64,000 bases of DNA from Ideonella paludis (GTDB lineage: Bacteria; Pseudomonadota; Gammaproteobacteria; Burkholderiales; Burkholderiaceae_C). Positions 11,468 through 38,686 of the stretch are shown piece after piece. How positions within the stretch are numbered: the first letter of the stretch is position 1; the number at the start of each line of letters is the position of its first letter. The position numbers and the translations under genes are program-made. The stretch covers positions 248,001 to 312,000 of the forward strand of contig NZ_JAGQDG010000007.1 of assembly GCF_018069865.1 (NCBI RefSeq). Direction: 5' to 3'. Below the pieces are notes generated by a model. It was not told where the DNA came from. It made no database searches and saw nothing but the letters and a program-made list of their open reading frames with translations.

Positions 11468-11489
11468 TCAGCCTTGGTGGCCTGTCATG

Positions 11490-11720
11490 CCCTGTCGCGG
11501 GGTAGGCCCCAGGGCTCATGCGAGAGGCGGTCGGCTAAAGCCGACTCCCTTGCGGTGCTCGTGCTGGGCTGGGCGCTGCAGAACTCGCTCCACTCACTGC
11601 GTTCGTTACGCTCAATCATCTGCTGCGAGTCAGAGATTGATGCGCGCTGCGCGCGCCCCAGCCCACCCCTGCGCTCCTCAGCGCCTCTCAAATCGCCCTG
11701 AGGCCCACCCCGCGCCAGGG
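11490..11720 (+). repeat. MITE-like element, copy 3 (231 bp)
   Basis: The ends at 11490-11515 and 11695-11720 are 26-bp terminal inverted repeats matching at 23 of 26 positions. The interior resembles copies 1 and 2: GGCTCATGC, then a (C/T)GGCTAA(A/T)GCC(A/G)AC hairpin, then CGGTGCTCG. It encodes no protein. Size and ends fit a miniature inverted-repeat element mobilised in trans. Confidence 0.65.
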
Positions 11721-15077: not shown

Positions 15078-15550
15078 AGCTCTGGCGCATTGCCGCCGAA
15101 ACCCGCCAATACCCCGCACACGACCTCTCCGGCAAGGGCGCGGCCATCAGCCCGGGCCGCTGGAACGAAGAGCAGCAAGCCGTGGTGTATGCGGCGCCCA
15201 CCATCGCCATGGCGGTGCTGGAAACGGCTGCTCACCTGGACCCAGGCGGCTGGCCGTTGAACCGATTCTTGGTGTGTATCAAAGTGCCTGACGAGGTGTG
15301 GGAGCGGCGCGAAGAGCTGCCCGCCGAACACCTGCCGCCCGCCTGGGCGGCCATCCCGGCGGGCTTGTCCAGCGTGACGGTGGGGGCGCAATGGCTGGCC
15401 TCCCGCAGCAGCGCGATTTTGCTGGTGCCCTCGGTCATCGTGCCCGAGGAATGGGTGGCCTTGATCAACCCCGCGCATGCGGATGCAGCCCGCATCAAGG
15501 CCAGCGTGCAACGGCCCGTCACTTACCAGCAGTTGTTCCGCGCTATTTAG
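15074..15550 (+). CDS. RES-domain toxin
   Basis: The 158-aa protein is a RES-domain toxin; characterised relatives degrade or modify NAD+ when free of antitoxin. Family marks are the start KLWRIA, GRWNEEQQAVVYAA (the R-x-N near residue 35 is the typical RES motif), ETAAHLD and the late WVALINPAHADAARI. The start is a GTG overlapping the antitoxin stop (GTGA), which implies translational coupling. It converges on the regulator gene and overlaps its end by 8 bp. Confidence 0.88.
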   Translation: MKLWRIAAETRQYPAHDLSGKGAAISPGRWNEEQQAVVYAAPTIAMAVLETAAHLDPGGWPLNRFLVCIKVPDEVWERREELPAEHLPPAWAAIPAGLSSVTVGAQWLASRSSAILLVPSVIVPEEWVALINPAHADAARIKASVQRPVTYQQLFRAI

Positions 15551-24305: not shown

Positions 24306-24405
24306 GGGTTCTCCTCCATCGGTCGGGGTTCTGTGTCGAACGTCTGGAGTGTGCATCAGGTGCACGGCGCTTTGTTGACGCTGTGTAAAGCGTCTGCCGA
24401 AGCAC

Positions 24406-24714
24406 CTAACCGCCACCTCGCTGCATATACAAGTCGAAGTAGCGCATAAAGGCTTGGCGCTCGGCCTCGTTCACGCCGTCAAACCGATAGCTCACCATCA
24501 GGTGCGGAAAGCGCGCCAAGCCCAGGGCGCGTGGGGGCAGAACCTCCCACTGCAGGTGGAGATGGCCTTGGCCGATGCTGACGGTGGCGCTGTGCTCGGT
24601 GGGCAGGCAGAGCGCATGGTCGCGGCAGGCGCCGGGCAGCCAGCGCAGCCAGTCGGCGGGGGTGCCGCCGGTGTCGCGGCTGAAGGATTCAGGGACGGAG
24701 GACAAGCGCCTCAT
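24406..24714 (-). CDS. small conserved-looking protein ending the aor operon
   Basis: The 102-aa protein is translationally coupled to the MoaD-like gene (ATGA overlap), so it belongs to the aor operon. It has no signal peptide or metal motif; the middle is beta-rich (ATVSIGQGHLHLQWEVLPP) and the end helical (NEAERQAFMRYFDLYMQRGGG). I do not recognise the family. A role in AOR assembly or tungsten cofactor handling is possible from position alone. Confidence 0.65.
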   Translation of the reverse strand: MRRLSSVPESFSRDTGGTPADWLRWLPGACRDHALCLPTEHSATVSIGQGHLHLQWEVLPPRALGLARFPHLMVSYRFDGVNEAERQAFMRYFDLYMQRGGG

Positions 24715-24965
24715 CCACCCGCAATGGGCGGCCAGACGGCCAGTGCATCGCCTTCTTTCAGCGTGCGGCTGGCACGCTCTTCCGGGGGCACGTAGCTGCC
24801 ATTGACGAGCACCAAATGCACCAGCTTGGGCGGAATGCTGAAAGACTCGATGATGCTGAGGACGGTGGCCTCGGGGGCCACCTCCAGTGCCATCTGGTTG
24901 CTGTTGCGTTTATCGACCGGCAGGTACTCGGTCAGCGTGGCAAAGAGCTTGAAGGTGATGTGCAT
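24711..24965 (-). CDS. MoaD/ThiS-like sulfur carrier of the aor operon
   Basis: The 84-aa ubiquitin-fold protein ends in IAGG, the C-terminal Gly-Gly that is activated and thiocarboxylated in MoaD-family sulfur carriers. The family pattern FKLFATLTEYLP, LVLVNGSYVPPEE and LKEGDALAVWPPIAGG is clear. It lies 19 bp after aorC. MoaD-like genes are standard companions of tungsten aldehyde oxidoreductases, supplying the dithiolene sulfur of the pterin cofactor or a dedicated variant. Confidence 0.9.
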   Translation of the reverse strand: MHITFKLFATLTEYLPVDKRNSNQMALEVAPEATVLSIIESFSIPPKLVHLVLVNGSYVPPEERASRTLKEGDALAVWPPIAGG

Positions 24966-24984
24966 GAGCGAATGCTATGTGCAA

Positions 24985-26382
24985 TCACCGAGGCTTGATG
25001 TGCGCATGGGCACTTTGGGCCTGGGCCGTGGCCAGGTAAGCGCTCATCAACAGGGTCGGGTCGGCCATGAGCTTCTCGCGCCATTCGCCGAGTTTGACTT
25101 CGCCTTCCACCAAGCCGCGCATCACGCCCACATGCTCGGTCCAGCCGATGGAGTTGCAGCCCACCAGTTTCTCGTGGTCGAACTGCAGGCTCAGCAGCTT
25201 GCCGTTGGCCTCGTCGGTCAGCTCGACATGCTGGCCGCCTTCCACACCGTCCCATTTGCCAAAGCTGGCGGAGATCATGCCCAGGGTGTCCAGCACGTTG
25301 ATCTGGGTCACGCCCTTCAGGCTGGTGCTTTGGCCGGCCATATTGAGCGCCGCCACACGGGCTTGCTCGGCCGCATTGGGCTGAATGGCGCTGACGATGG
25401 TTTTGCCACTGACCTTGTCGAAGGCCTCAGCGCAATCGCCCGCCGCATAGATGCCGGGCACATTGGTTTGCAGGTGCTCGTCGGTCAAGATGCCCACCAA
25501 GCAGGTGATGCCGCTGTCCTGCAAGAAGCCGATGTTCGGGCGCACGCCGGTGGCAGAGATCACCAAATCAGCCTCCAGCACTTGGCCGGTCGAGAGCTTG
25601 ACCTGCATGGCGCCGCTGGCGCTGGCGGCTGCCGCGGCTGGGGCGGGTGCCGGGGCCGGCGCGCCGCCCAAGCCAATGGCCGAGGCCAGCTTGCTGAGCA
25701 AGCCGGGCTCTGCGGGGGCCGGTGCGGGCGCAGCGGCGGCGCTGCCGGGGCGCTCAATCGCATCGACGCGCGCGCCGGTGTAGACCTTGACGCCCTTGGC
25801 TTCGCACCACTGCTTGATCATGCGGCCGGCGGTGGGGCCCATCATGCGGGGCACCATGCGGTCGCCCATTTCCACCACGCTGAGCTGCACGCCGCGCATG
25901 GCCAGCGCTTCCATGATGATGCAGCCGATGAAGCCTGCGCCCATTTGCAGCACGCGGGCACCCGGCTTGGCCAGGGCCATGATGGCGCGGGCATCTTCCA
26001 GCGTCCAGCAGGTGTGCACGCCAGGGCCGGTGATGCCAGGCACCGGGGGCTGCACCGGGGATGAGCCGGTGGCGATCAGCAGCTTGTCAAAGGATTCGCG
26101 GCTGCCGTCTTCCAGCACCACGGCGCGGGCGGCGGTGTCCACCGTCTTCGCGCGGCCCCGGCGCAGCTCCACGCGCAGAGCGGCGAAGTGGCCGGGCGTG
26201 TGGCGCAGGTGCGTGCCTTCTTCGCCGACCTTGCCAATCAGCAGATAGGGGATGGCCATGCGCGAGTAGGGCGCTTCGGGTTCGTCGCCGATGACCACGA
26301 TCTGGTCGTTGGGGGCGTGCTTGCGGAGGGTCTCGGCCGCAATAACACCGGCCGGGCCGGCACCGAGGATGACGTGCTTCAT
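24985..26382 (-). CDS. aorC: FAD/NAD(H)-dependent oxidoreductase subunit of tungsten AOR (AorC-like)
   Basis: The 465-aa flavoprotein is the pyridine-nucleotide subunit that exchanges electrons between the AorA iron-sulfur chain and NAD+. The FAD site is VILGAGPAGVIAAETL (residues 4-19), the NAD site VLQMGAGFIGCIIMEA (144-159) and the second FAD motif GIYAAGDCAEA (310-320). An Ala/Pro-rich insert spans about residues 212-258, between NAD-domain strands, with repeated APAP runs; that is unusual for the family. ATG 26382 is 16 bp downstream, in the operon direction, of a strong terminator hairpin. Confidence 0.88.
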   Translation of the reverse strand: MKHVILGAGPAGVIAAETLRKHAPNDQIVVIGDEPEAPYSRMAIPYLLIGKVGEEGTHLRHTPGHFAALRVELRRGRAKTVDTAARAVVLEDGSRESFDKLLIATGSSPVQPPVPGITGPGVHTCWTLEDARAIMALAKPGARVLQMGAGFIGCIIMEALAMRGVQLSVVEMGDRMVPRMMGPTAGRMIKQWCEAKGVKVYTGARVDAIERPGSAAAAPAPAPAEPGLLSKLASAIGLGGAPAPAPAPAAAAASASGAMQVKLSTGQVLEADLVISATGVRPNIGFLQDSGITCLVGILTDEHLQTNVPGIYAAGDCAEAFDKVSGKTIVSAIQPNAAEQARVAALNMAGQSTSLKGVTQINVLDTLGMISASFGKWDGVEGGQHVELTDEANGKLLSLQFDHEKLVGCNSIGWTEHVGVMRGLVEGEVKLGEWREKLMADPTLLMSAYLATAQAQSAHAHIKPR

Positions 26383-26392
26383 GGTGTGATCA

Positions 26393-26421
26393 GAAAAAAG
26401 GCGGTGCCGGGGCACCGCCTT
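26393..26421 (-). terminator. rho-independent terminator between aorB and aorC
   Basis: In the operon direction AAGGCGGTGCC and GGCACCGCCTT form a perfect 11-bp stem with a 2-base loop followed by TTTTTT. It ends about 10 bp before the aorC start codon. It is an internal, presumably leaky, terminator inside the aor operon. Confidence 0.85.
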
Positions 26422-26460
26422 GTGAACAAGTGGGAGCGGCCGCTGAAGGACGCTCCGGGT

Positions 26461-26488
26461 GCGCTCAAGGGCAGAAAACCTTGAGCGC
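26461..26488 (-). other. second hairpin directly after aorB
   Basis: GCGCTCAAGG and CCTTGAGCGC form a perfect 10-bp stem around an 8-nt loop, 5 bp beyond the aorB stop codon. With no T-tract it is more likely an mRNA-stabilising 3' hairpin for the aorAB message than a terminator. Confidence 0.7.
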
Positions 26489-26493
26489 GGCCA

Positions 26494-28350
26494 TCAGAGA
26501 CCCAGACGGCTGCGGGTCTCGGGCTTGAGCTGGCCGTCGGCGTCCCAACCACGGATGTCGTAGTAGATCGGCAGCATCTCGCCCAGCTTGTTGACCATGC
26601 CCTTGGCAGGGCCGGTCTTGGCGGGCTCGGTCAGCAGGCGCTTGGGCAGGGTGTCGTCTTTGGAGCTGAAGCCGGCGCGGTTGTTGAAGTCGCGCTCCAT
26701 GTTCCAGATGCGCTCGCCGATGGTGTTCAAGTTCTCCAGGGTGAACTCGTCGCCGCAGGCGGCGGCCACTTGCGGCTGCACATCGGCCAGGCCCCAGGCA
26801 AAGCTGGTGAAGATGCACACGCCGGCAGCGTCAAACGCGGCGGTGGCGTCTTGGAAGGCCTTGACCAGCTCAGGCTTGCCGTTAGATTCGAGCGGGTCGG
26901 TCTTGACGGGAATGCCCAGCACTTCAGAGGCGATGGTGTAGCCGCGCAGGTGGCAAGCACCGCGGTTGGACGTGGCATAAGCCAAGCCAATGCCTTGAAT
27001 GCCGCGGCCGTCGTAGGCCGGGAACTCTTGGCCCTTGACCGACATGGACAGATCCGGGTGGCCGTACTTGGCGGTCAGGCGCTTGGAGCCTTGGCCGATC
27101 TCTTTGCCAAAGCCTTCGCCCTTGGCGGTGATCTCCGCAAAATAGGCCAGCGCCTGGGCCGAGCCGAACTTGGCGTCGATGCCGATCTGCTCTTTGGTCA
27201 GCACGCCCATTTCGTACAGCTCCATCACCGCGCCGATGGTGGCGCCGAAGGTGATGGGGTCCATGCCGTGCTCGTTGCACAGCACGTTGGCGTACTGCAG
27301 GGTGTCCAGGTCGTTCACACCGTTGGCAGCGCCCAAGGCCCAAGCCGCTTCATACTCCAGGCCGCCCGAAGCGCCCCAGTATTGCGGCTTGTTCTCAACG
27401 GTGAAGTGGTTCTGGTCGATCTTTTGGATACGGCCGCAGGCAATGGTGCAACCAAAGCAAGCTTGGTTGGTGACCAGAGGCTTTTTGCCGTCGCTGCCCG
27501 GCGCAGTGCGGGGGCGGCCCATGGCTTCTGCGCCAATGTCGCCGGCGCCTTCAAACTGCACATCGCGGTGGTTGCGGGTGGGCAGGGCGCCGACTTCGTT
27601 GATCACGCTCATCAGCACCTGGGTGCCCATCGCGGGCAGGCCCACGCCGGTGACGCCGTTCTCGGCCAGGATCTTTTTCTTCTCGGCCGTGACGCGCATG
27701 AACTCCTTGGGGTTGACCAAGTTGCCCACGCCCTTTGTGCCTCGCACCACCACGGCCTTCAGGTTCTTGCTGCCCATCACTGCGCCCACGCCAGAGCGGC
27801 CAGCGGCACGGTGCAGGTCGTTCACCACGGCGGCGAACAGCACCAGGTTCTCACCGGCAGCGCCGATGCTGGAGACGCGGACCAGCGGGTCTTGGTGGCT
27901 GGCCTTGATGGTCTTCTCGGTGTCCCAGACTGACTTGCCCCAGAGGTGAGACGCATCCTTCAGCTCGGCCACATCGTTCTCGATGGACAGGTACACCGGC
28001 TTGGGCGACTTGCCTTCAAAAATGACCATGTCCCAGCCAGCCATCTTCAGCTCGGCACCCCAGTAGCCGCCCGAGTTGGAGCAGGCGATGGCGCCGGTCA
28101 GCGGGCCTTTGGTGACCACGGTGTAGCGGCCGCCGGTGGAGGCCATGGTGCCGGTCAGCGGGCCGGTGGACCAAATGATTTTGTTGTCGGGCGACAGCGG
28201 GTCGACCTTGGGGTCGATTTCTTCGACCAAGTACTTGGAAGCCAGGCCACGCGAGCCCAGGTATTGCTTGGCCCAATCCATGCGCAGCGGCTCAGAGGCC
28301 ACCGTGCCGTTGGTCAGGTTGACGCGGAGAAGTTTTCCAGCCCAAGACAT
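26494..28350 (-). CDS. aorB: tungsten-dependent aldehyde:ferredoxin oxidoreductase large subunit
   Basis: The 618-aa enzyme oxidises aldehydes to acids at a tungsten bis-pterin site. It starts with the family pattern SWAGKLLRVNLTNGTV, and has GAVMGSKNLKAVVVRG for pterin contacts. The [4Fe-4S] ligands are CFGCTIAC plus a later Cys (AAGVCIFTSFAWG). The length is normal for AOR-family proteins. AAGGAGCGAACAC precedes the ATG. The set aorA-aorB-aorC plus a MoaD-like gene matches the three-subunit AorABC enzyme of Aromatoleum. The nearby tungstate transporter supports W over Mo. Confidence 0.94.
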   Translation of the reverse strand: MSWAGKLLRVNLTNGTVASEPLRMDWAKQYLGSRGLASKYLVEEIDPKVDPLSPDNKIIWSTGPLTGTMASTGGRYTVVTKGPLTGAIACSNSGGYWGAELKMAGWDMVIFEGKSPKPVYLSIENDVAELKDASHLWGKSVWDTEKTIKASHQDPLVRVSSIGAAGENLVLFAAVVNDLHRAAGRSGVGAVMGSKNLKAVVVRGTKGVGNLVNPKEFMRVTAEKKKILAENGVTGVGLPAMGTQVLMSVINEVGALPTRNHRDVQFEGAGDIGAEAMGRPRTAPGSDGKKPLVTNQACFGCTIACGRIQKIDQNHFTVENKPQYWGASGGLEYEAAWALGAANGVNDLDTLQYANVLCNEHGMDPITFGATIGAVMELYEMGVLTKEQIGIDAKFGSAQALAYFAEITAKGEGFGKEIGQGSKRLTAKYGHPDLSMSVKGQEFPAYDGRGIQGIGLAYATSNRGACHLRGYTIASEVLGIPVKTDPLESNGKPELVKAFQDATAAFDAAGVCIFTSFAWGLADVQPQVAAACGDEFTLENLNTIGERIWNMERDFNNRAGFSSKDDTLPKRLLTEPAKTGPAKGMVNKLGEMLPIYYDIRGWDADGQLKPETRSRLGL

Positions 28351-28361
28351 GTGTTCGCTCC

Positions 28362-28841
28362 TTAAGCTGCAGAAGAAGGTTGGTTGCCGAGCTTGTCAGC
28401 CCAGGCGGCCATCTTGTTGAGGCCCGTCCAGTTGGCGTCCACATAGGTGATAGCGCCGGTGGGGCAAGCGGTGGCGCAAGCGGGGTCGCCGCCGCAGAGG
28501 TCGCACTTCTGGACCTTGCCGGTCTCTTGCACGTAGTTAACCGTGCCGAAGGGGCAGGAGATGGTGCAGACCTTGCAGCCCACGCAGGTGCTCTCGGCCA
28601 CGACCTTGGCGCCGGTGGCTTTGTCCACCGTGATGGCCTCGACCGGGCAAGCATGCAAGCACCATGCTTCGTCGCACTGGGTGCAGGTGTAGGGCACTTT
28701 GCGGCCCGTTTCGTGGAAGTCGAACACCTTGATGCGTGACTTGGCCGGCGCAAACACGCCGTAATTTTCATAGCTGCAGGCCATTTCGCACTGCAGGCAC
28801 CCGGTGCACTTCTCCGGGTTGATATGAAGGCTCTTCTGCAT
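28362..28841 (-). CDS. aorA: polyferredoxin-type small subunit of tungsten AOR (AorA-like)
   Basis: The 159-aa protein has Cys motifs for four [4Fe-4S] clusters: CTGCLQCEMAC, CTQCDEAWCLHAC, CVGCKVCTISC and CDLCGGDPACATAC. It is the electron conduit between AorB and AorC. The frame stays open far upstream through a repeat, but ATG 28841 begins the conserved MQKSLHINPEKCTGC. It is the first gene of the operon, 11 bp before aorB. The operator-like palindrome lies 88 bp upstream. Confidence 0.92.
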   Translation of the reverse strand: MQKSLHINPEKCTGCLQCEMACSYENYGVFAPAKSRIKVFDFHETGRKVPYTCTQCDEAWCLHACPVEAITVDKATGAKVVAESTCVGCKVCTISCPFGTVNYVQETGKVQKCDLCGGDPACATACPTGAITYVDANWTGLNKMAAWADKLGNQPSSAA

Positions 28842-28928
28842 GGTCGTCTCTTTCGCAGTCGGTCCAGGATGTGGGGCCAGCCTCGAAGGGCAGGGCGCCA
28901 CACGGGCACCGTCCTCCTGGGTTGGGGT

Positions 28929-28946
28929 TATGCAATGATCTGCATA
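28929..28946. promoter_or_regulatory. perfect palindrome TATGCA-N6-TGCATA upstream of aorA
   Basis: TATGCA, spacer ATGATC, TGCATA. Arms and spacing are identical to the palindrome upstream of tupB. It lies 88 bp before the aorA start, a normal position for an activator or repressor site. The binding protein is not known. Confidence 0.65.
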
Positions 28947-29090
28947 GCGCTCCACTTTCGAAAGGCCGTGCAAACCCTGATTAAGCCTGTTCGGTGCAGG
29001 GTTGCTGTACCAGCGTGGGACGAAACACGTGTTTTTGCGCAAATGGGCTAGGTGGGGGGGCTTTCGGCGGGCGTGCTTGCCGGGGTTGGT

Positions 29091-29516
29091 GCGTGCGCTG
29101 CCACAGGCCGTGGCCCGGGGCTCATGCATCGGCGGTTGGCTAATGCCAACTGCCCTCGGTGCTCGGCCAAGCGCGTGCGCCGTCAAACTCCAGCCGCTCA
29201 CCTTCGGCTCGCTGTGGTCAAACAGTGACGGCGAATATGTTGTTGAAGCGCGCGAGTACGCGCGCCACGCCCTTGTCCTGCGCGCCTCGGCGCCGAAGAA
29301 ATCGCCCCGGGCCACGGCCTGTGGCAGCGCTGGTCCAGCGTTGGAGGCCTGCACGATTGGCTTGCCTGACGTTGCGCAGCCATGGCAGAAAGTGGGTAAG
29401 TGACCGGTGCCTTCGGAGGATTTGCGAGCCGGCAACGCCCCCCTTGCAATCACGTCAAGACGCGGCCTCTGGGCCGCTATAGTGCTGCGCAGCGTTACGA
29501 CAAAATGCCGGTTTGT
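29091..29516 (-). repeat. about 425-bp inverted duplication, copy 2 (partner 13815-14240)
   Basis: The reverse complement of this segment parallels 13815-14240: CAAACCGGCATTTTG, GCGCAGCACTATAGCGG, GTCTTGAC, then a less conserved stretch, then the MITE-like element. The two copies face each other across about 14.9 kb holding the toxin-antitoxin, selD and aor loci. Confidence 0.7.
29095..29330 (+). repeat. MITE-like element, copy 2 (236 bp)
   Basis: The ends 29095-29121 and 29304-29330 are perfect 27-bp terminal inverted repeats, each itself partly palindromic (CCACAGGCCGTGG). The interior holds a GTTGGCTAATGCCAAC hairpin and the blocks shared with copies 1 and 3. No coding capacity. It sits about 250 bp upstream of aorA. 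Confidence 0.8.
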
Positions 29517-29643
29517 AATTGCTGAACAGAAGTCGGATCGGTAGCAAATGTGCTAGTAGCCATAGATACTTAGATTAGCTGATGCTTGTGTTTTCTGGCG
29601 AGGGGCTTTTCTAGCGAGAGGCGCTTTACCCGCCCATAAAGTT

Positions 29644-29922
29644 ATGCAGCTTGAAGAGGTTACCGAAGGTTGGGACTCAGTCCATGTGGGACAGGAGGGT
29701 GCCGCTCTGTCGATTGAGGGCATCAATCCCTGGTTGCATGCAGCGCTGTGGCAGCGAGCACAGGCTGATCACACTGTTGTGCCCCACCTTACCTACCGGC
29801 ATCAGCGACATCGGGCATGGGTCTATGAGGTCTCGCAGAATGGCAAGACTGCTCGATTTGCCGCGGCGGAACTCTCGAACGGCATATGGGGCTTCTATGT
29901 GCCACGCGAATCCGCTGTTTGA
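29644..29922 (+). CDS. hypothetical protein (92 aa)
   Basis: I do not recognise this small protein. It is Trp-rich (WDSVHVG, PWLHAALWQRAQ, AWVYEV, GIWGFYVP) and soluble, with no signal peptide. The regular mix of hydrophobic and charged residues and the ordinary ending argue for a real product, although no strong ribosome binding site precedes the ATG. It is bracketed, with the next gene, by MITE-like copy 2 and the isolated element end at 30882. Confidence 0.5.
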   Translation: MQLEEVTEGWDSVHVGQEGAALSIEGINPWLHAALWQRAQADHTVVPHLTYRHQRHRAWVYEVSQNGKTARFAAAELSNGIWGFYVPRESAV

Positions 29923-30039
29923 ACGGCTGCTCGATGAGACCACCTTCGGCAGGCAGCGCTGCGATTGGCAACTGACCTTTGCTTAGCCCGGCAGGCTGAT
30001 GGCGACAACTTACCACCAACGTTTTGCTTTGAGGCACCC

Positions 30040-30690
30040 ATGAGTGACGTCACTGCCCAGGGATCGCAGTTTGAAAGTGCAGCATCCATCTTCCGGCTGA
30101 TTTCTACTTCCCTATTCATTTGCGGCTTCTTCCCTGCTGTTGTTGCTGCCACGGTGCCCAATGGCCAGGACAAATCAGTCGCCATCGAGCGAGAGGTCGA
30201 GCGTCTCGAGGCGGAGCAGTACCGGCTTCTGGAGCAAGTCAGGAACGAGTTGGCCGCGCTGCCAGCCATCGCTCCGTCCTCGCCTCAGGCAGCTCGGCGA
30301 GCGAAGCTTGAGTTGTTGCTTGCAGAGATTGAGCGCCGGATCAATGCGGAGTCATCTGGTCGCACATACTACGTCTCCGCCATGACTCCGGATACCGAGA
30401 TCCGTTCATACTACGAGCGTGTTCAGCGTCGGATTGAGGAGCAAGGCAACATCAACTTCCCCAAGACCGACACCACCTCGTTGTACGGGCGCGTTGTCGT
30501 TACCTTTGCGCTGAATGCTGACGGGAAGATCGATCGTATCGACATCGCAAAATCCACGTCGAAAGTCTTGTCAGAGCACGCGATCAACCTGCTGAGGATG
30601 CTAGAGCCGTTTGAAAGCTTTCCTCCCGAAGTGGCGAAGAGGATCGATCAAATGGTGATCACGGCTCCGTTCAATTACAAGCGAAAGTAG
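30040..30690 (+). CDS. exported protein with a TonB-like C-terminal domain
   Basis: The 216-aa protein has an N-terminal hydrophobic segment (FRLISTSLFICGFFPAVVAAT), a coiled-coil-like charged stretch (residues about 47-105: IEREVERLEAEQYRLLEQVR) and a C-terminal TonB-like domain: YYERVQRRIEEQGNINFP, GRVVVTFALNADGKIDRIDI, FESFPPEVAKRI. It lacks the Pro-rich spacer of true TonB, so contact with outer-membrane receptors is uncertain. GAGGCACCC before ATG 30040 is a weak start signal. Composition is lower in GC than in the core genes, fitting an accessory origin. Confidence 0.7.
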   Translation: MSDVTAQGSQFESAASIFRLISTSLFICGFFPAVVAATVPNGQDKSVAIEREVERLEAEQYRLLEQVRNELAALPAIAPSSPQAARRAKLELLLAEIERRINAESSGRTYYVSAMTPDTEIRSYYERVQRRIEEQGNINFPKTDTTSLYGRVVVTFALNADGKIDRIDIAKSTSKVLSEHAINLLRMLEPFESFPPEVAKRIDQMVITAPFNYKRK

Positions 30691-30881
30691 AGCAGTGGGA
30701 GTGGGGCATAACCACCCCATCTAGCGAGCAAGTGTCGGCAAGCCCCAACCGCCTCTCTTTTCGAACGTTGAGCGGTATCGGTACTTGATCGCCACATCTT
30801 CAGCGCAGGACAAGTTTGAGATTTGGTCTCTACGCACTTTGCTCCTGCCGCCATAAGTCGCACCGTTCCACTACTTCACCC

Positions 30882-30907
30882 GCCCTGGGGCCTACCCCTC
30901 GACAGGG
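30882..30907. repeat. isolated MITE-like element end
   Basis: These 26 bp match the reverse complement of the left end of MITE-like copy 3 (11490-11515) at 25 of 26 positions. No partner end is found within 250 bp on either side. It looks like a remnant of a deleted or rearranged element. Confidence 0.65.
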
Positions 30908-30980
30908 CCACTTAAGCTACAAACCGTAGCCCGAACCATCACATAACCCGGCAACAAGCGAGGGAGCACCTGCCCCGCGC

Positions 30981-32849
30981 TCAAGGCGCCGTACACAAAC
31001 AATGCACCGCCGCCGCATAGGGCTGGCGGCCTTCGATCAGTTTGCGGGCCAGGGCCAGCTCGCCCTGGTCTTGGCGGGTGGCCCACGCGGCGGCGTTGCG
31101 CAGCGGGTTGCTGTGGCTGCCCATCAAGCTTTGGAACAGGGGTGCGATGCTCACGGCCGCTTGGTCGCCCAGGCTGGCCAGCAGGCGGTCGAAGCGGCTG
31201 CGTTCGGGCTCGACGTAGACCACGGCGGGTTTATCCAGCTTGGCCAGGCTGGTGGCGGCGGTGATGGCGTCTTGCAGGCCGCCCAACTCATCCACCAAGC
31301 CGCGCTCTTTGGCTTGCTGGCCGGTCCAGACGCGGCCTTGGGCCACGGCGTCCAGCGCTTCGGGCTTCATCTTGCGGGCGGCGGCGGCCTGGCCGATGAA
31401 GCGGGTGTAGATGTCGTTGATGCCAGATTGCACCACCTCGGCCATGCGCGGGTCCAGGGCACGGCGCGGGTCATAGCCGCCAGCCAGCCAAGTGGTGCTG
31501 TAGCCGCCGGTGCGGATGGAGAGCTTGTCCATCAAGCCCTCAGCCGTGGGCAGCATGCCGAACACGCCGATGGAGCCGGTGATGGTGCCTTTGTCGGCCA
31601 ACACGCGGTCGCTGGACATGGAGATCCAATAGCCGCCCGAAGCGGCCACATCGCCCATGGAGATGACCACGGGCTTGCCGGCCGTGCGGGTCACTTCCAA
31701 CTCGCGGCGCACGATCTCGGAGGCCAAGGCGCTGCCGCCGGGGGAGTTGACGCGCACGACCACGGCCTTGATGCGTTCGTCCTCTCGGACCTGGCGGATC
31801 AGGCGGGCGGTGGAGTCGCCGCCGATGGTGCCGGGGCTGGCGAAGCCGTCGATGATCTCGCCTTCAGCCACCACCACACCCACGGCGGGGCCGATGGCGG
31901 AGGGCTGGGGGGCTTGACGGGCGTAGTCGGCCAAGCTGACTTGGCGGATGGTTTTGTCGTCCAGCGCGCCGCCCTTGATGATCTTCTCGCGGAACAGGTC
32001 GCGGGTGATCACGGCGTCCACCAGCTTGGCGTTCAGGGCCAGCTTGGCACCGTCGCCGCCGGTGGCCTTCAGGGCTTCGGGCAGGGTGTTGATCAGTTGG
32101 GTGATGCTGCCGGCGGGCAGCTTTCGCTGGGCTTCGACGCTGCTCATGTAGTCGGCCCAGAGGGCGTCGTACAGATACGCATCGGCCTCTAGCGCGGCCT
32201 TGGAGGGTGCGTTGGCAATGTAGGGCTCACCAAAGCTCTTGAAGGTGCCCACGCGCAGCAGGTGCACGGTGATGCCCAGGCGGTCCAGCGCGTCTTTGTA
32301 GTAATTGCGCTGGCGGCCAAAGCCCGACAACTCCACCATGCCCATGGGGTGCAGGTTGACCTCATTGGCATGGCTGGCCAGATAGTAGCCGGCTTGGCTG
32401 AAGTGTTCGCCATAGCTCAGCAGCGGCTTGTTGCAGGCCTTGAACTGCGTCAGCGCGGTGCCCACTTCGCGCAGTTGGGCCATGCCTGCGCCTTCAAACT
32501 CGCTGACATCCAGCACGGCTTGGCTGATGTTGGGGTCTTTGCAGGCTTCTTTGAGTGCGGTCAGCACGTCGCGCAGGCGGGTCTGGTGGACCATCTCGCC
32601 CTGGGCGCCGGCCAGCAGGTGTTCACGCGGCGAGCCCGCCACCTCTTCCACCAGCTTGCCTTGCAGGTTGAGCACCAGCGTGGTTTTGTCCTTGGGCTTG
32701 TCGGGCTTGCTGGTGAAGAGGGCGACCGCAATGGCGATCAGCACCAAGAGGATGATGAGGTTGAAGAAGGCGCGGCGGCAGAGGTCTAGAAACCACCAAA
32801 TACCCTTAAAGACTGCCACAAAAGGCGACGCGATGGAGCTGAACGACAT
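30981..32849 (-). CDS. sppA: signal peptide peptidase SppA, 67-kDa type
   Basis: The 622-aa membrane-bound serine protease degrades cleaved signal peptides. One N-terminal membrane segment is visible (FFNLIILLVLIAIAVALF), with two tandem domains. The Ser-Lys dyad is Lys204 in GTFKSFGEPY (N-domain) and Ser404 in GDVAASGGYW (C-domain), matching the spacing of the E. coli enzyme (K209/S409). ATG 32849 is chosen over an in-frame ATG five codons upstream. It lies after the tup operon on the same strand but is separated from it by a hairpin. Confidence 0.95.
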   Translation of the reverse strand: MSFSSIASPFVAVFKGIWWFLDLCRRAFFNLIILLVLIAIAVALFTSKPDKPKDKTTLVLNLQGKLVEEVAGSPREHLLAGAQGEMVHQTRLRDVLTALKEACKDPNISQAVLDVSEFEGAGMAQLREVGTALTQFKACNKPLLSYGEHFSQAGYYLASHANEVNLHPMGMVELSGFGRQRNYYKDALDRLGITVHLLRVGTFKSFGEPYIANAPSKAALEADAYLYDALWADYMSSVEAQRKLPAGSITQLINTLPEALKATGGDGAKLALNAKLVDAVITRDLFREKIIKGGALDDKTIRQVSLADYARQAPQPSAIGPAVGVVVAEGEIIDGFASPGTIGGDSTARLIRQVREDERIKAVVVRVNSPGGSALASEIVRRELEVTRTAGKPVVISMGDVAASGGYWISMSSDRVLADKGTITGSIGVFGMLPTAEGLMDKLSIRTGGYSTTWLAGGYDPRRALDPRMAEVVQSGINDIYTRFIGQAAAARKMKPEALDAVAQGRVWTGQQAKERGLVDELGGLQDAITAATSLAKLDKPAVVYVEPERSRFDRLLASLGDQAAVSIAPLFQSLMGSHSNPLRNAAAWATRQDQGELALARKLIEGRQPYAAAVHCLCTAP

Positions 32850-32869
32850 GACACACCTGCCCATGAAAG

Positions 32870-32895
32870 AAGGCCACCCAGGTGTGGGTGGCCTT
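32870..32895 (-). terminator. terminator hairpin after tupA
   Basis: AAGGCCACCC and GGGTGGCCTT form a perfect 10-bp stem around a 6-nt loop, followed in the tup direction by TTCTTTC. It closes the tupBCA transcript before sppA. Confidence 0.75.
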
Positions 32896-32965
32896 GCAGA
32901 TGTTAAGCGGCGCCGCCTTGCAGTGCGCGCTTCAAGCTGGGGGCTTGCTCAGCGTTTGCTCAAGA

Positions 32966-33802
32966 TCACCGTGCAGCGTTGGGGAAAAACAATTGTTCGC
33001 CGTTGATTTTGTAGGCGGCGATGCTGGATTGGCCGGCCGGTGAGGTGACCCAATCGGCAAACTGCTGGGCCAGAGCGGCTTTGACATGCGGGTGCTTGGC
33101 CGGGTTGACCACCATCACGCCATATTGGTTGAACAGCACCTTGTCGCGTTCGACCAGCACGGTCAACTCGCCCCGGTTTTTGAAGGACAGCCAGGTGCCA
33201 CGGTCGGTCAGCACATAGCCGTTGGTCGACGAGCCCATGTTCAGCGCCGGGCCCATGCCGCAGCCGCACTCTTTGTAGCCCGCAGGCTTGGCCGCGGCCA
33301 TGTCCACACCGGCGGCCTTCCACAGGCGCAGCTCGGCGGCGTGGGTGCCGCTCTTGTCGCCGCGCGAGATGAAGGGCGCGCCGCTGCTGCCGATTTTGCC
33401 CAGGGCGGCGGCCACGGTGTGGCCCTTGACCTTGGCCGGGTCACTGGCCGGGCCGACGATGACGAAGTCGTTGTACATGACCGCTTTGCGCTGAGTCGAG
33501 AAACCATCGGCGACAAACTTTTCTTCGGCCACCGTGTCGTGCACAAAGACCACATCGGCGTCACCACGCCGGCCCATGTCCAGCGCTTGGCCGGTGCCCA
33601 CGGCCACCACTTTGACGTCAATGCCGGTGGCGGCTTTGAAGGCTGGCAACAGGTGGGCAAACAGGCCCGACTGCTCGGTGGAGGTGGTCGAGGCCATCAA
33701 GATGGCCTTGTCTTGGGCCTGCAGCAGCGGAGCGGCCAACAGCAGGGCCATGGCCGCGGCCAGGGCACGCAGGGCGGGACGGCGGGAAGAGATCAAGTCC
33801 AT
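32966..33802 (-). CDS. tupA: tungstate ABC transporter substrate-binding protein
   Basis: The 278-aa periplasmic protein binds tungstate. After the signal peptide (ALAAAMALLLAAPLLQAQ) comes the TupA anion-binding signature in ASTTSTEQSGLF, followed by VGTGQALDMGRRGDADVVFVHD. ISRGDKSGTHAAELRLW is also typical of TupA. TupA is highly selective for tungstate over molybdate in characterised systems. It is the last gene of tupB-tupC-tupA; its start overlaps the tupC end by 10 bp. The W-dependent AOR operon 5 kb away is the obvious customer. Confidence 0.93.
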   Translation of the reverse strand: MDLISSRRPALRALAAAMALLLAAPLLQAQDKAILMASTTSTEQSGLFAHLLPAFKAATGIDVKVVAVGTGQALDMGRRGDADVVFVHDTVAEEKFVADGFSTQRKAVMYNDFVIVGPASDPAKVKGHTVAAALGKIGSSGAPFISRGDKSGTHAAELRLWKAAGVDMAAAKPAGYKECGCGMGPALNMGSSTNGYVLTDRGTWLSFKNRGELTVLVERDKVLFNQYGVMVVNPAKHPHVKAALAQQFADWVTSPAGQSSIAAYKINGEQLFFPNAAR

Positions 33803-34518
33803 GGCAATTCTCCTTTGAGGAACTGGGCTGCGGCCTCGGGCAGCGTGTCATTGAAAAAGGCATCAACGGGGCGCTGCACCACAAGCTGCCCCGCTTCCAG
33901 ATACGCCACCTGGGTGGCCAGGCGCTTGGCCTGCCCCAAGTTGTGCGTGCTCATCACCACGCTGACGCCGTCTTGGCCAAACTCGGCGATCAGGCTTTCG
34001 ACCTCGCGCTTGGCCGACGGGTCCAAGCTGGCGGTGGGCTCGTCCAAGAACAAGATGTCGGGCTGCAAGGCCCAGGCCCGCGCCAGGGCCAGGCGCTGCT
34101 GCTGGCCGCCCGAGAGCGCGTGGGCGGGGCGCTGGGCCAACTCCCGCAGGCCCACGCGGCGCAGGGCTTCGTCGGCCCGCTGGGCGCGCTGGTCTGCGGG
34201 CACGCCGCGCAGCCACAGCCCCAGGCGCAGGTTGCGCTGCACGCTGAAGCTCAAGAAGAATGGCTTTTGGAACAGCATGGCCGAGACCGGCGGCTGCTGC
34301 GTGGCGGGCAAGGCATGCACCAGGCGCTGGCCTTGGCTCAGGGCTTGCAGGCCGTTGAGGGCGCGCAGCAAAGTGCTCTTGCCCGAGCCATTGGCGCCCA
34401 GCAGGGCCAGGCGCTCACCTTGGTGAAGCGTCAAGTTGATGTGGGAGAGTGCGCGCACCTGGCCAGCGGCATAGACCACGCTGGCGTCTTGCAGGCTGAT
34501 CAAGGGCGTATTGCTCAC
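33793..34518 (-). CDS. tupC: tungstate ABC transporter ATP-binding protein
   Basis: The 241-aa ATPase has Walker A GANGSGKST, signature LSGGQQQRLALARA, Walker B ILFLDEPTASLD and the H-loop STHNLGQAKR. The ORF is open upstream through tupB in another frame, but the GTG at 34518 overlaps the tupB stop (GTGA) and starts the conserved region (SNTPLISLQDASVVY). It powers tungstate import with TupB and TupA. Confidence 0.92.
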   Translation of the reverse strand: MSNTPLISLQDASVVYAAGQVRALSHINLTLHQGERLALLGANGSGKSTLLRALNGLQALSQGQRLVHALPATQQPPVSAMLFQKPFFLSFSVQRNLRLGLWLRGVPADQRAQRADEALRRVGLRELAQRPAHALSGGQQQRLALARAWALQPDILFLDEPTASLDPSAKREVESLIAEFGQDGVSVVMSTHNLGQAKRLATQVAYLEAGQLVVQRPVDAFFNDTLPEAAAQFLKGELPWT

Positions 34519-35225
34519 AGCGCCTCCGCCGGCAAGTGGCTGCCGCGCTGCACCAGCGCAATCAGCCCATTGACCAAGCCCACCACGCCCAGCAGCACCG
34601 CGCCCAAGGCCAAGGCCAGCGGCAGGTCGCCTTTGCTGGTTTCCAGCGCAATGGCGGTGGTCATCACCCGGGTGTTGCCCAGAATATTGCCGCCCACAAT
34701 CATCACCGCGCCCACCTCGGCCACGGCGCGGCCAAAGGCGGTGAGCATCACCGTCAGCACGCCCAGGCGCTGGTGGGCCAGCATCAACAAGGCGCGCAGC
34801 AAGGGGCCGGCACCCAAGGCGGCCAGTTGATCCCCGCCCTCGGCCAGCGCGTCCATCACCAAGCGGCGCGAGAGCGCGGCAATCAAAGGCACCACCAGAA
34901 TGGTCTGCGCGATGACCATGGCGGTGGGGGTGAAGAGCAAGCCCCACGATCCCAGCGGCCCAGAGCGCGACAGCATCAAATACACCAGCAGGCCCACCAC
35001 CACCGAGGGCAGGGCCAGCAAGGTGTTGAGCAGCCACACCAAGCCCCCATGGCCCGGAAAGCGCGCCACCGCCAACCACGCGCCCAGGGCCAAGCCCAGC
35101 ACCGCGCCCAGGGCACAAGCACTGAGGCTGACCTTGAGAGAGAGGCCGACGATGGCCAGCAGCTCGCTGTCAAAGCGAGTGATCATCTGCAGGGCGAGGG
35201 AGAGGCTGTCGGCAAGCGTGTTCAT
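34515..35225 (-). CDS. tupB: tungstate ABC transporter permease
   Basis: The 236-aa inner-membrane permease has about five membrane segments and the binding-protein-dependent transport loop GRAVAEVGAVMIVGGNILGN, typical of TupB. ATG 35225 is preferred to the upstream ATG at 35282 because the upstream codon lies inside the palindromic operator and the added 19 residues are hydrophilic. It is the first gene of tupBCA and divergent from moeA. Confidence 0.92.
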   Translation of the reverse strand: MNTLADSLSLALQMITRFDSELLAIVGLSLKVSLSACALGAVLGLALGAWLAVARFPGHGGLVWLLNTLLALPSVVVGLLVYLMLSRSGPLGSWGLLFTPTAMVIAQTILVVPLIAALSRRLVMDALAEGGDQLAALGAGPLLRALLMLAHQRLGVLTVMLTAFGRAVAEVGAVMIVGGNILGNTRVMTTAIALETSKGDLPLALALGAVLLGVVGLVNGLIALVQRGSHLPAEAL

Positions 35226-35265
35226 GAACCGGCGCGATTCTGGCGTGGCCTTTGGGCTTGAGCGA

Positions 35266-35283
35266 TATGCACGTTCGTGCATA
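35266..35283. promoter_or_regulatory. perfect palindrome TATGCA-N6-TGCATA between tupB and moeA
   Basis: TATGCA, spacer CGTTCG, TGCATA; the spacer extends the dyad (GCACGTTCGTGC). It lies 41 bp upstream of the tupB start and 148 bp upstream of moeA. The arms and spacing are the same as at the aor operon, so a common regulator is likely. Confidence 0.7.
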
Positions 35284-35430
35284 AGGGATGGCGCGGACTT
35301 GGCATGATGGTGGGCGCAGCGCTGGCCCGCGCTGGGGTGTCTCGGCTTGGATCAACGCCACAATGGCGCCCTGTTGTCTGAGTCGCGACTGCGCGATTGA
35401 GGCTTTATTGAAATTTGGAAAGCACGCTTC

Positions 35431-36711
35431 ATGCTTGGACCTTCTCCCCTGATGGCTGGTGACGAACTCCCGGTGGCTGAGGCGCGCGCGCGCATTCATG
35501 CGGCGCTGCGTCCCATCACCGACGTACAGACGCTGCCGCTGCGCCAAGCGCTGGGCCGTATCTTGGCGGCCGATGTCATCAGCCCGATCGCCGTGCCAGC
35601 CCACGACAACTCGGCCATGGACGGCTACGCCCTGCACGGCGCCGACCTGCTGGCCGATGCGCCCACTGCCTTGCGAGCCCTGGCTGGCGTGACCGTGTTT
35701 GCCGGCACCCCGCTGGCCCAGCCCGTGGGGCGTGGGCAGTGCGTTCGCATCATGACGGGGGCCGTCATGCCTGAAGGCCTGGACACGGTGGTGCCCATCG
35801 AGCTGTGCCAGGTCGCGGCCGACGCCGCCGGCGATGTGGTCACCCTGAAGCCGGGGGTGTTGAAGCCGGGTGAGAACCGCCGCAAGCGCGGTGAAGATCT
35901 GGCCTTGGGTCAGCCCGCTTTGCGGGCAGGGCACTTGCTGCGGCCGGCAGACTTAGGGCTGCTGGCCTCGCTGGGCGTGGCCGAGTTGCAAGTCTTCAGG
36001 CGTCTCAAGGTGGCGCTGTTCTCCACCGGCAATGAGCTTCGCACCCTGGGCCAGCCGCTGGAGGAAGGCTGCATCTATGACAGCAACCGATTCAGCCTGA
36101 TGGGGGCCTTGGAGCGCCTGGGGGTGGAGGTGCTGGACCTAGGGCTGGTGGCCGACGACCCCGTGGCGCTCAATGCCACGCTCGACCAGGCCCTTGCCCA
36201 CGCCGATGTGGTGCTGACCAGTGGCGGCGTGAGCATGGGCGATGCCGACTACACCCGCGACCTGCTGGCGGCGCGCGGCGAGGTGGGTTTTTGGAAGGTG
36301 GCGATGCGGCCCGGCCGGCCCTTTGCCTTTGGCCCGCTGCACGCGGCGGCCGGGCGCACCGCGTGGCTGTTTGCACTGCCAGGCAACCCGGTGGCGGCCT
36401 TGGTGACCTTTTATGCCTTTGCCCGTGAAGCCTTGCTGGTGCTGGCGGGGGCCACGCCGCGGCCGCTGCCCGTGCTGAAGGCACGCAGTGTCGCGGCCAT
36501 CCGCAAGCGGCCAGGGCGCACCGAGTACCAGCGCGGCATCGTCAGCCTGGGCGATGACGGCCGCTGGGAGGTGCGCCTGACCGGCGCCCAGGGCGCCGGC
36601 ATTTTGCGCAGCATGACCGAGGCCAATGCCTTGGTGGTGCTGGGGCATGAGCAAGGCGCGGTGGCGGCCGGGGACGAGGTGGCCGTGTGGCTGTTCGACG
36701 GCTTGGTCTGA
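35431..36711 (+). CDS. moeA: molybdopterin molybdenumtransferase MoeA (Mo or W insertion)
   Basis: The 426-aa cytosolic enzyme inserts molybdate, or tungstate in W-specific variants, into adenylylated molybdopterin. Family marks are PAHDNSAMDGYA, GECVRIMTGAVMP-like GQCVRIMTGAVMPEG, NRRKRGEDLALG, LFSTGNEL, TSGGVSMGDADY and ALPGNPVAALVTF. Its position divergent from the tungstate transporter suggests a role for the W-AOR; whether it also serves the Mo hydroxylase cannot be told from sequence. Pairs of moeA paralogues, one for each metal, are common. Confidence 0.95.
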   Translation: MLGPSPLMAGDELPVAEARARIHAALRPITDVQTLPLRQALGRILAADVISPIAVPAHDNSAMDGYALHGADLLADAPTALRALAGVTVFAGTPLAQPVGRGQCVRIMTGAVMPEGLDTVVPIELCQVAADAAGDVVTLKPGVLKPGENRRKRGEDLALGQPALRAGHLLRPADLGLLASLGVAELQVFRRLKVALFSTGNELRTLGQPLEEGCIYDSNRFSLMGALERLGVEVLDLGLVADDPVALNATLDQALAHADVVLTSGGVSMGDADYTRDLLAARGEVGFWKVAMRPGRPFAFGPLHAAAGRTAWLFALPGNPVAALVTFYAFAREALLVLAGATPRPLPVLKARSVAAIRKRPGRTEYQRGIVSLGDDGRWEVRLTGAQGAGILRSMTEANALVVLGHEQGAVAAGDEVAVWLFDGLV

Positions 36712-36732
36712 TCAGCACTGCGCCACATCGCT

Positions 36733-36770
36733 CGGCCGGGTGTTTGTGCAAAGGTGGCACAGCCCGGCCG
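36733..36770. promoter_or_regulatory. long inverted repeat between moeA and the PQQ dehydrogenase gene
   Basis: CGGCCGGG and CCCGGCCG are perfect 8-bp outer arms; TGTGC and GCACA form inner arms. The dyad lies 21 bp after moeA and about 85 bp upstream of a sigma-54 promoter. It may be the moeA terminator (no T-tract) or an enhancer site for a sigma-54 activator. Confidence 0.5.
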
Positions 36771-36854
36771 TAGCAGGCCGCGTTTACCCTAGCTCATCTC
36801 ATGGCTTTTGGGGCCGCCGGGGCTGGAAAAGCCGCTTGGCAGCCTTTTGAAAGG

Positions 36855-36870
36855 TTGGCACGATTGTTGC
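36855..36870 (+). promoter_or_regulatory. sigma-54 (RpoN) promoter of the PQQ alcohol dehydrogenase
   Basis: TTGGCACG-ATTG-TTGC matches the -24/-12 consensus, with GG and GC separated by exactly 10 bases. It lies 77 bp upstream of the start codon. Just after it a dyad CCGGGAA-AAC-TTCCCGG (36870-36886) could be an operator or 5' hairpin. Confidence 0.85.
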
Positions 36871-36946
36871 CGGGAAAACTTCCCGGAACGCTGGAAAACC
36901 CACCCGGCGTGACACAGCTGCACACCTCTTCAGAAGGAGACATTCC

Positions 36947-38686
36947 ATGCGTTTGAAATTGCTGCCCTTGCTGCTCACCGTCGGCCTGGCCTCTATGGCG
37001 GCTCAAGCCGCTGTCACCGATCAGATGATCGCGGACGATGCCAAGACCACAGGTGACGTGCTGTCCTGGGGCATGGGCACCCAAGGCCAACGTTACTCCC
37101 CGCTCAAGCAAGTCAACCCCAAGACCATCGACAAGCTGGTCCCGGCTTGGTCTTTCTCCTTCGGGGGTGAAAAGCAGCGCGGTCAAGAATCTCAGCCGGT
37201 GATCCACAACGGCAAGATGTTTGTGACGGGCTCCTACTCGCGTATCTACGCGCTGGACGCCGCCACCGGCAAAAAGCTCTGGAAGTACGAGCATCGCCTG
37301 CCCGACGGCATCATGCCCTGCTGCGACGTGATCAACCGCGGCGCTGCGCTGTATGACAACCTGGTCATCTTCATGACCCTGGATGCCCAAATCGTGGCCC
37401 TGGACCAAAACACCGGCGACGTGGTGTGGAAGGAAAAGATCGACAACTACGCGGACGGCTACTCGGCTTCTGCGGCACCGCTGATCGCGGGCGGCTTGCT
37501 GCTGACCGGCGTGTCGGGCGGTGAGTTCGGTGTGGTGGGCCGCGTTGAAGCGCGCAACCCCAAGACCGGCCAAATGGTCTGGTCGCGCCCCACTGTTGAA
37601 GGCCACATGGGCTACAAGTGGGACGACAAGGGCAACAAGACCGAAAACGGCATCTCCGGCACCACCAACAAGACTTGGCCGGGTGACCTCTGGAAGACCG
37701 GCGGCGCAGCCACTTGGTTGGGCGGCACCTACGACAGCAAGACGGGCCTGGCCTACTTCGGCGCTGGCAACCCGGCACCATGGAACAGCCACCTGCGCAA
37801 GGGTGACAACCTGTTCTCCTGCTCGACCATCGCCATCGACATCAAGACTGGCCAGATCAAGTGGCACTACCAGAACACCCCCAACGACGGTTGGGACTTC
37901 GACGGTGTCAACGAGTTCATCACCTATGACCAAGACGGTCGTCGTCTGGGCGGCAAGGCTGACCGTAACGGCTTCTTCTATGTGAATGACGCCACCACCG
38001 GCCAACTGGTCAACGCCTTCCCCTTCGTCAAGAAGGTGACCTGGGCTACCGGCATCGACCTGAAGACCGGCCGTCCGAACTTCGTGCCTGAGAACCGCCC
38101 TGGCGACCCCACGGCCGGCTCTGATGGCAAGAAGGGCCAGAGCGTCTTTGCTGCCCCGTCCTTCCTGGGTGGCAAGAACCAGATGCCCATGGCCTACAGC
38201 CCGGACACCGGCCTGTTCTATGTGCCTGCCAATGAGTGGGGCATGGAAATCTGGAATGAGCCCATCACCTACAAGAAGGGTGCGGCTTATCTGGGCGCGG
38301 GCTTCACCATCAAGACCATCAACGACGAGTACATCGGTGCCATGCGCGCCGTGGACCCGAAGACCGGCAAGATCGTCTGGGAAGCCAAGAACAACGCGCC
38401 GCTGTGGGGTGGTGTGTTGACCACGGGCGGCAACTTGGTGTTCTGGGGCACGCCTGAAGGCTATCTGCAAGCCGCTGATGCCAAGACCGGCAAGATCGTC
38501 TGGAAGTTCCAGACGGGCTCTGGCGTGGTCGCTCCTCCGGTGACGTGGGAGCAAAACGGCCAGCAATATGTGGCCGTGGTGTCCGGCTGGGGTGGCGCAG
38601 TGCCGCTGTGGGGTGGTGATGTGGCCAAGAAGGTCAACTACCTGGAGCAGGGCGGCTCGGTCTGGGTCTTCAAGCTCTTGAAGTAA
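36947..38686 (+). CDS. PQQ-dependent alcohol dehydrogenase with lanthanide-type active site
   Basis: The 579-aa periplasmic quinoprotein has a signal peptide ([17 protein letters not shown]), the eight-bladed propeller with recurring tryptophan-docking repeats ([28 protein letters not shown]) and the vicinal disulfide Cys125-Cys126 that touches PQQ. Metal ligands are Glu193, Asn275 and the catalytic Asp317 in WDFDGVNE. Asp319, two residues on, is the extra ligand found in lanthanide-dependent enzymes (XoxF, ExaF/PedH) and absent (Ala) in calcium MxaF. No cytochrome partner is adjacent. A sigma-54 promoter and GAAGGAGA ribosome binding site precede it. The substrate may be a short or aromatic alcohol. 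Confidence 0.93.

Follow-up and report, generated by a model that had tools for sequence, protein, structure and literature searches.

We report a putative tungsten operator in a 64,000-nucleotide stretch of the Ideonella paludis genome (contig NZ_JAGQDG010000007.1, positions 248,001 to 312,000 of the forward strand), called the window in the following. The inverted repeat TATGCA-N6-TGCATA lies upstream of two operons, aorABC (tungsten aldehyde oxidoreductase, AOR) and tupBCA (tungstate importer). From comparison with relatives we consider it highly probable that this operator, the regulator encoded at 15543-16715 and its targets (tup, aor and formate dehydrogenase) form one tungsten regulon. 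A single regulator over aor and tup had been suggested in an earlier note on this DNA, and this is supported by the core of the repeat, TATG-N10-CATA, ranking first among dyads upstream of each operon, with regulator homologues encoded alongside.

Conservation of the inverted repeat at aor and tup

The two copies in the window are:

28929-28946, no strand assigned: putative operator TATGCA-N6-TGCATA upstream of aorABC; equivalents at 12 of 30 other aor loci
35266-35283, no strand assigned: putative operator upstream of tupBCA, with moeA divergent; equivalents at 34 of 71 other tup loci

Both are perfect and there is no third perfect copy in the window, exactly as the earlier note had described; 100 dinucleotide shuffles of the window yielded none. 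The same two are the sole perfect copies in the whole 4.80-Mb genome (backwards control 0), where about 0.05 would be expected for independent, identically distributed bases at the GC content of the window (64.1%). The dyad is thus not scattered at random through the genome, an outcome that had been named beforehand as refuting the proposal. The aor copy has palindromic arms of 6 bp and lies 87 bp from the start codon of aorA (28841). The arms of the tup copy extend to 8 bp (TATGCACG-TT-CGTGCATA), and the gap to the start codon of tupB (35225) is 40 bp. If up to three mismatches are allowed, the window holds 12 dyads compared to 14.8 expected; without enrichment at this level only near-perfect copies are informative. 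This lack of enrichment is what a mere chance pair of palindromes would predict, but two perfect genomic copies against 0.05 expected, their absence from the shuffles and the retention of the core at the same genes in relatives, first in the dyad scan, leave chance a negligible probability.

To follow the core through the order (Burkholderiales) 399 genomes were sampled. TupA was found in 113 of them, giving 117 listed places including our own, from which 60 other places were taken, mostly the best-scoring (some at contig ends were left out). A further 11 loci, regulator-bearing or from a search of named genomes, were added later. Of the 60 loci, 28 have the exact core within the 400 bp that precede the first tup gene; with the added ones it is 34 of 71. 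An unbiased scan covered 5376 palindromic tetramer dyads (spacers of 0-20), and TATG-N10-CATA ranks first at tup, with 34 of 71 loci compared to 0.14 expected; kinship among the loci inflates p values more than rank. The composition at unselected positions lengthens the half-site, leading to TATGHA-N6-TDCATA (H = not G). The second-ranking dyad, ATAT-N12-ATAT (11 of 71), represents at least partly the same sites read one base further out, because no zone has it without TATG-N10-CATA. Altogether 39 exact cores occur in 517 kb of tup loci, and 34 of these sit at most 420 bp upstream of the first tup gene. The other five lie in the gap between regulator and tup (L068; loci and genomes are given by L and G numbers), before aorA (L035), before a distant regulator homologue (L083), or have no evident role (L031, L082).

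AorB was found in 36 of the 399 genomes. Just before aorA the exact core is present in 11 of 29 aor loci besides our own, or 12 of 30 if the named locus L128 is included, and it occurs nowhere else in those 29 loci (up to 4.8 kb each); three more carry it with one mismatch. The unbiased scan, run separately at aor, again places TATG-N10-CATA first (12 of 30 compared to 0.07 expected). The expectation that the site is kept at both promoters in relatives is therefore borne out, though not for all of them. The longer pattern TATGHA-N6-TDCATA occurs in 155 of the 399 genomes, and the backwards control is frequent per genome as well; therefore not its presence in a genome is diagnostic but only its place.

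The genes around the two sites are:

28362-28841, minus strand: aorA, Fe-S subunit (4Fe-4S families)
26494-28350, minus strand: aorB, tungsten aldehyde oxidoreductase large subunit (AFOR_N and AFOR_C)
24985-26379, minus strand: aorC, FAD/NAD subunit (Pyr_redox_2)
34515-35225, minus strand: tupB, tungstate ABC permease (NF041773 match below cut-off, NF038017 above)
33793-34518, minus strand: tupC, ATPase (ABC_tran; with tupA and tupB in relatives; start picked by eye)
32966-33802, minus strand: tupA, tungstate-binding protein (PF12849; NF041772 match below cut-off)
35431-36711, plus strand: moeA, divergent from tup across the operator (MoeA_N, MoCF_biosynth, MoeA_C)

A gene for a pyrroloquinoline quinone (PQQ)-dependent alcohol dehydrogenase (36947-38686) adjoins moeA; another such gene is divergent from a distant regulator homologue in L184 (3808-5553). 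An Rfam search of 24000-37500 gave no family at gathering score, and hence no molybdenum or tungsten cofactor (Moco/Tuco) riboswitch upstream of tup, aor or moeA.

The candidate regulator and its distribution

15543-16715, minus strand: candidate regulator of 390 residues, ModE/LysR-type helix-turn-helix (HTH) and PBP_like sensor (Pfam HTH_1, PF12727); homologues divergent from tup

The protein matches HTH_1 with 32.2 bits (cut-off 26.6) and PF12727, the oxyanion-type PBP_like family, with 187.9 bits. Its N-terminal HTH resembles the ModE repressor domain TIGR00637 (38.7 bits, E 7.9e-10), below the cut-off of 98.5. The Pfam scan gave no HTH_17 and, at E 0.01, no TOBE domain, no LysR_substrate (PF03466) and no recombinase-type match. 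The AlphaFold model (mean predicted local distance difference test score, pLDDT, 90.8) has the architecture HTH, long helix and PBP fold as in LysR-type regulators, judged by the top Foldseek matches listed.

Of the 60 tup loci, 34 encode a ModE-type homologue of this protein divergently from the first tup gene, and for 27 of them the intervening DNA contains the core. Tup loci that have a ModE-type regulator carry the core in 31 of 48 cases, compared to 3 of 23 loci in which none or another DNA-binding domain was found; proteins combining HTH_17 with PBP_like occur in 6 of the 71 loci, with the core in none of the six. At aor the core accompanies 10 of 17 regulator-bearing loci compared to 1 of 12 others. 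Fisher tests on such counts treat loci as independent, although relatives are not. Within the family of the host TATGHA-N6-TDCATA is present in all seven genomes with the regulator and in none of five without it.

The search of named genomes gave 12 regulator loci, all from metagenome-assembled genomes except Azohydromonas sediminis. In L126 (Burkholderiales bacterium PBB6) moeA, the core, tupBCA, aorABC and the regulator gene follow in a row. The core is also found at aor in L128 and at tup in L133 and L134; in L125 the aor operon is cut by the contig end, and six other named loci have neither operon in the stretch. In three of the named loci an exact core lies towards the 3' end of the regulator gene (L128 9124, L129 9187, L130 9131). 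In L136 (Ideonella sp. MAG2) an apparent insertion of about 3 kb (8854-11663) splits the regulator gene. It was rejected as an assembly chimera because it contains a mosaic-end sequence, presumably of Nextera type, once right at the far border. A dispersed repeat of the window (13996-14229) recurs in L136 at 9595-9828 (93%), and by eye similar text is seen near 29190-29400.

Outside the order a regulator match was found in 13 of 312 further genomes of the class, and in 8 of these 13 the core directly precedes the regulator gene. In L219, L222 and L223, which are without the core, the regulator gene follows tupA in the same orientation. Divergent from the distant regulator gene are tup in L224, a gene for an Alginate_exp protein in L230 and fds-like genes in L231. 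Regulator homologues were also present in four plasmid records. The 15.1 kb of Diaphorobacter sp. HDW4B contain exactly two cores, one located 65 bp upstream of tupA and the other 43 bp upstream of a formate dehydrogenase operon; in Aquabacterium olei and Halomonas sp. PA16-9 there is a single core just upstream of the regulator gene.

The earlier note had pointed to the protein encoded at 15543-16715, and homologues divergent from tup with the core in between show that the choice of candidate was right: this protein is the likely binder of both dyads. Its place in a supported tree group of 28 together with tup-linked regulators (SH-like approximate likelihood ratio test, SH-aLRT, 99) is a further argument. 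The genome encodes a paralogue (G000:C21:69143-70180, 42% identical) that could bind both sites instead. It combines an HTH of ModE type (SYRHAW) with PBP_like and lies about 9 kb from a one-mismatch site at the formate dehydrogenase operon. As it falls outside the supported group, and as 6 of the 12 named loci of 15543-16715 homologues have tup or aor nearby, this exchange of roles seems unlikely. Less probable still, and in our estimation quite improbable, is a fortuitous link of aor, formate dehydrogenase and tup through an unrelated regulator, such as an aldehyde or redox sensor. A possible precedent for a foreign palindrome fitting the 12-base pattern is TATGCAACCAGTTGCATA, which recurs exactly in genomes of families f8 and f32 (G158, G314, G239, G209) and probably belongs to another regulator. 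The co-occurrence of core and regulator across loci, the absence of the core with the other HTH type and its position before the regulator gene itself outside the order speak against such a regulator.

Several observations weigh against the regulon with 15543-16715 as its regulator. The gene lies 18.5 kb away from tup and, like the 10 other regulators of its immediate group, lacks a core of its own, and the similarity of the paralogue, with its ModE-type HTH close to the formate dehydrogenase site, counts here as well. The core is missing between regulator and tup for 7 of the 34 divergent ModE-type regulators and from 7 of the 17 regulator-bearing aor loci. G002 and G137 have close regulators yet no exact core at tup, L131 has tupBCA and a regulator of 69% identity without the core, and Methylobacterium bullatum has a divergent homologue and tup, again without it. 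Conversely, G338 carries the core at aor with only an HTH_17-type protein at its tup locus. Both Diaphorobacter sites match the TATG/CATA core, not the full TATGHA half-site.

Formate dehydrogenase and other targets

A strict-pattern scan gave three sites away from tup and aor that lie upstream of a formate dehydrogenase alpha gene (G204, G294, G325; assigned by TIGR01591 below cut-off, partial protein). A search of 40 chosen genomes with the alpha protein was positive in 31. The exact core is present in 5 of 30 formate dehydrogenase (fdh) loci scanned, each time with its start 264-288 bp ahead of the alpha-gene match. This set is partly circular, as three of the five loci (G294, G204, G325) had been found via the pattern; G017, G215 and Diaphorobacter are independent. 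In the dyad scan of the fdh set TCGA dyads outrank TATG-N10-CATA. In G294 the distance from the end of the site to a small gene ahead of fdhA is 25 bp; this small gene resembles a 'formate dehydrogenase region TAT target' (TIGR02811, 42.4 bits, cut-off 48.45). In the I. paludis genome a one-mismatch site ends, by eye, 37 bp before the equivalent first small gene of the fdh operon. Judged by these sequence positions the third predicted target is formate dehydrogenase. Further predicted targets are some porins and, in many relatives, the gene of the regulator itself.

Besides the fdh operon one-mismatch dyads occur at two more places of the genome. One (G000:C11:417102) lies inside a succinyl-CoA-ligase-type gene and was dismissed as a target, presumably being there by chance. 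The other is in the window:

4043-4060, no strand assigned: possible weak site with one mismatch, flanked by a molybdenum-hydroxylase operon and an xdhC-like gene; no more than a lead

It belongs to two degenerate copies in 4020-4060, with two mismatches and one mismatch, respectively. Three extra strict-pattern sites (G204:C1:194256, G017:C2:1434, G355:C44:104754) have no recognised tungsten or molybdenum gene nearby.

In L220, L221, L226 and L228 the core separates a regulator homologue from a divergently encoded OprO/P-type porin (PF07396), which is possibly an outer-membrane route for tungstate or molybdate. In L225 (2571-2669) two cores separate the homologue from a divergently encoded metal-free NAD-dependent formate dehydrogenase (NF005750), and the homologue may control this tungsten-free substitute enzyme. 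Paired cores 65-71 bp apart, located between regulator and target, are seen in L038, L067, L078, L086, L087, L221, L226 and L228; the pairs are wider in L225 (81 bp) and L230 (85 bp).

Position of the sites, sign of regulation and known systems

Two short elements near the operators bear on the position of the sites:

35237-35242, minus strand: -10-like hexamer CAGAAT, inferred promoter, 23 bp downstream of the tup operator
28972-28977, minus strand: GGGTTT box, starting 31 bp upstream of the aor operator

A hexamer with at least four of six matches, A at position 2 and T at position 6, starting 22-24 bp after the site, was counted as -10-like. It is found at 28 of 42 tup-side sites compared to 8% in shuffles, and at none of 20 enzyme sites (13 aor, 7 fdh/fds); the difference in spacing between tup and enzyme sites has a p of 2e-7. 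This start of the hexamer would place the tup site near -45. The distance from the end of the aor site to the start codon is 27-87 bp (median 44, n = 13), and the fdh sites, where read, end 25-43 bp before the small gene. GGGTTT-like boxes lie 42-47 bp, mostly 42-44 bp, upstream of 7 of 12 other aor operators and are possibly the site of a second regulator. What counts against the argument from position is that the -10 spacing had been spotted by eye before it was counted, and in the very same set. A fair test is provided by the sites outside that set, where it holds for 1 of 1 (Diaphorobacter), 0 of 1 (L224) and 5 of 11 (porin or metal-free formate dehydrogenase), together 6 of 13. In addition, a scan with the sigma-70 consensus found no promoter at tup or aor, and the aor promoter itself was not located.

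In the mechanism we propose, a dimer of the ModE/LysR-type HTH would read two TATGHA half-sites and the PBP_like domain would read the intracellular level of tungstate (or molybdate). A single regulator could in this way tie tungstate import by tup to the tungsten enzymes (aor and formate dehydrogenase) and, in many relatives, to its own expression. The position of the site probably sets the sign of regulation. At tup it would lie about 45 bp before the inferred transcription start, the place of an activator; at aor and fdh it lies just before the start codon of the first gene, the place of a repressor. The tungsten-free protein would bind, keeping uptake on and the enzymes off, and tungstate would reverse both. 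That one DNA-binding form activates at tup and blocks at the enzymes is inferred from the two site geometries, and the tungsten-free form is chosen because physiology asks for it. For the polarity by itself, a tungsten-free regulator activating uptake and repressing the enzymes, we see the scales evenly balanced.

The main rival is a polarity as in TaoR or ModE, in which the tungstate-bound form occupies the same sites and, when tungsten is replete, represses tup and activates aor. This is what TaoR of Desulfovibrio vulgaris is reported to do (Rajeev et al. 2019), and LysR-type proteins reportedly often bind DNA with and without ligand. A further point in its favour is that disruption of tupR (DVU3193) confers chlorate resistance, just as losing aor or tupABC does (PMC10102598); this would suit a positive regulator of aor or tup. 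TaoR and tupR are presumably one protein; the same paper cites Rajeev et al. 2019 for tupR. Against the rival polarity argue the tup sites, 28 of 42 of which precede a -10-like hexamer by 22-24 bp, a distance suited to an activator, and the aor and fdh sites, which adjoin the start codon. We regard this polarity as somewhat doubtful, though a serious contender. Our own, still tentative picture, to which we give slightly less than even confidence as a whole, is that of a second, separately built tungsten regulator, with a PBP_like sensor on a ModE-type DNA-binding domain, its own operator and a sign set by position. In its tungsten-free form it would activate tup, anion porins and possibly the metal-free formate dehydrogenase as a substitute, and it would block the tungsten enzymes, all of which tungstate would reverse at once.

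Among known systems TunR of sulfate reducers (Kazakov et al. 2013) is reportedly alike in its tungstate-responsive control of oxyanion uptake, and is said to have the opposite make-up, a recombinase-type (XerC/XerD) DNA-binding domain with a ModE-type sensor. A ModE-like protein of Campylobacter jejuni is reportedly the regulator of separate molybdate and tungstate transporters (Taveirne et al. 2009) and would thus control a tungstate importer, as is proposed here. The LysR-type regulators CbnR, BenM and OxyR share HTH, long helix and PBP fold with the predicted model of the window protein, which has PF12727 in place of their effector domain LysR_substrate. FdsR of Ralstonia eutropha reportedly regulates a formate dehydrogenase operon (Oh and Bowien 1999); the homologue in L231 is divergent from fdsG- and fdsB-like genes.

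TaoR and the window protein both have a PBP-like sensor and are linked to aldehyde oxidoreductase and tungstate uptake; they differ in the DNA-binding domain, excisionase-type HTH_17 in TaoR (PMC11980592) and ModE/LysR-type with its own operator in the window protein. Sites at the aor and tup promoters, a trait of the TaoR family, are present here as well. With ModE of Escherichia coli the window protein would share an oxyanion-linked regulon, and its N-terminal HTH may be related to the ModE repressor domain (TIGR00637 below cut-off). The differences are the TOBE domain, of which none was found here, and the ModE consensus ATCGCTATATANNNNNNTATATAACGAT (PMC2700814). The earlier note called the arms unlike the ModE site, yet they are perhaps not wholly foreign: the TATGHA half-site may be a relative of the ModE half-site because the DNA-binding part of the regulator is ModE-like. 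In open-licence literature we found no description of a regulator with ModE-type HTH and PBP_like domain or of its site; Rajeev et al. 2019 may mention one. The task is known from TaoR and ModE; the domain make-up and operator are the parts for which this literature gave no description.

One kind of sensor sits on two unrelated DNA-binding domains at the same genes. The use of tungsten or molybdenum is hard to tell apart by sequence, and the operator could provide a searchable genomic mark of tungsten over molybdenum use in Burkholderiales and some other Gammaproteobacteria. By this mark, formate dehydrogenases downstream of the site would be tungsten enzymes, which bears on CO2-reducing enzymes. 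If true, in genomes without AOR the operator would mark those formate dehydrogenases that should be tungsten enzymes.

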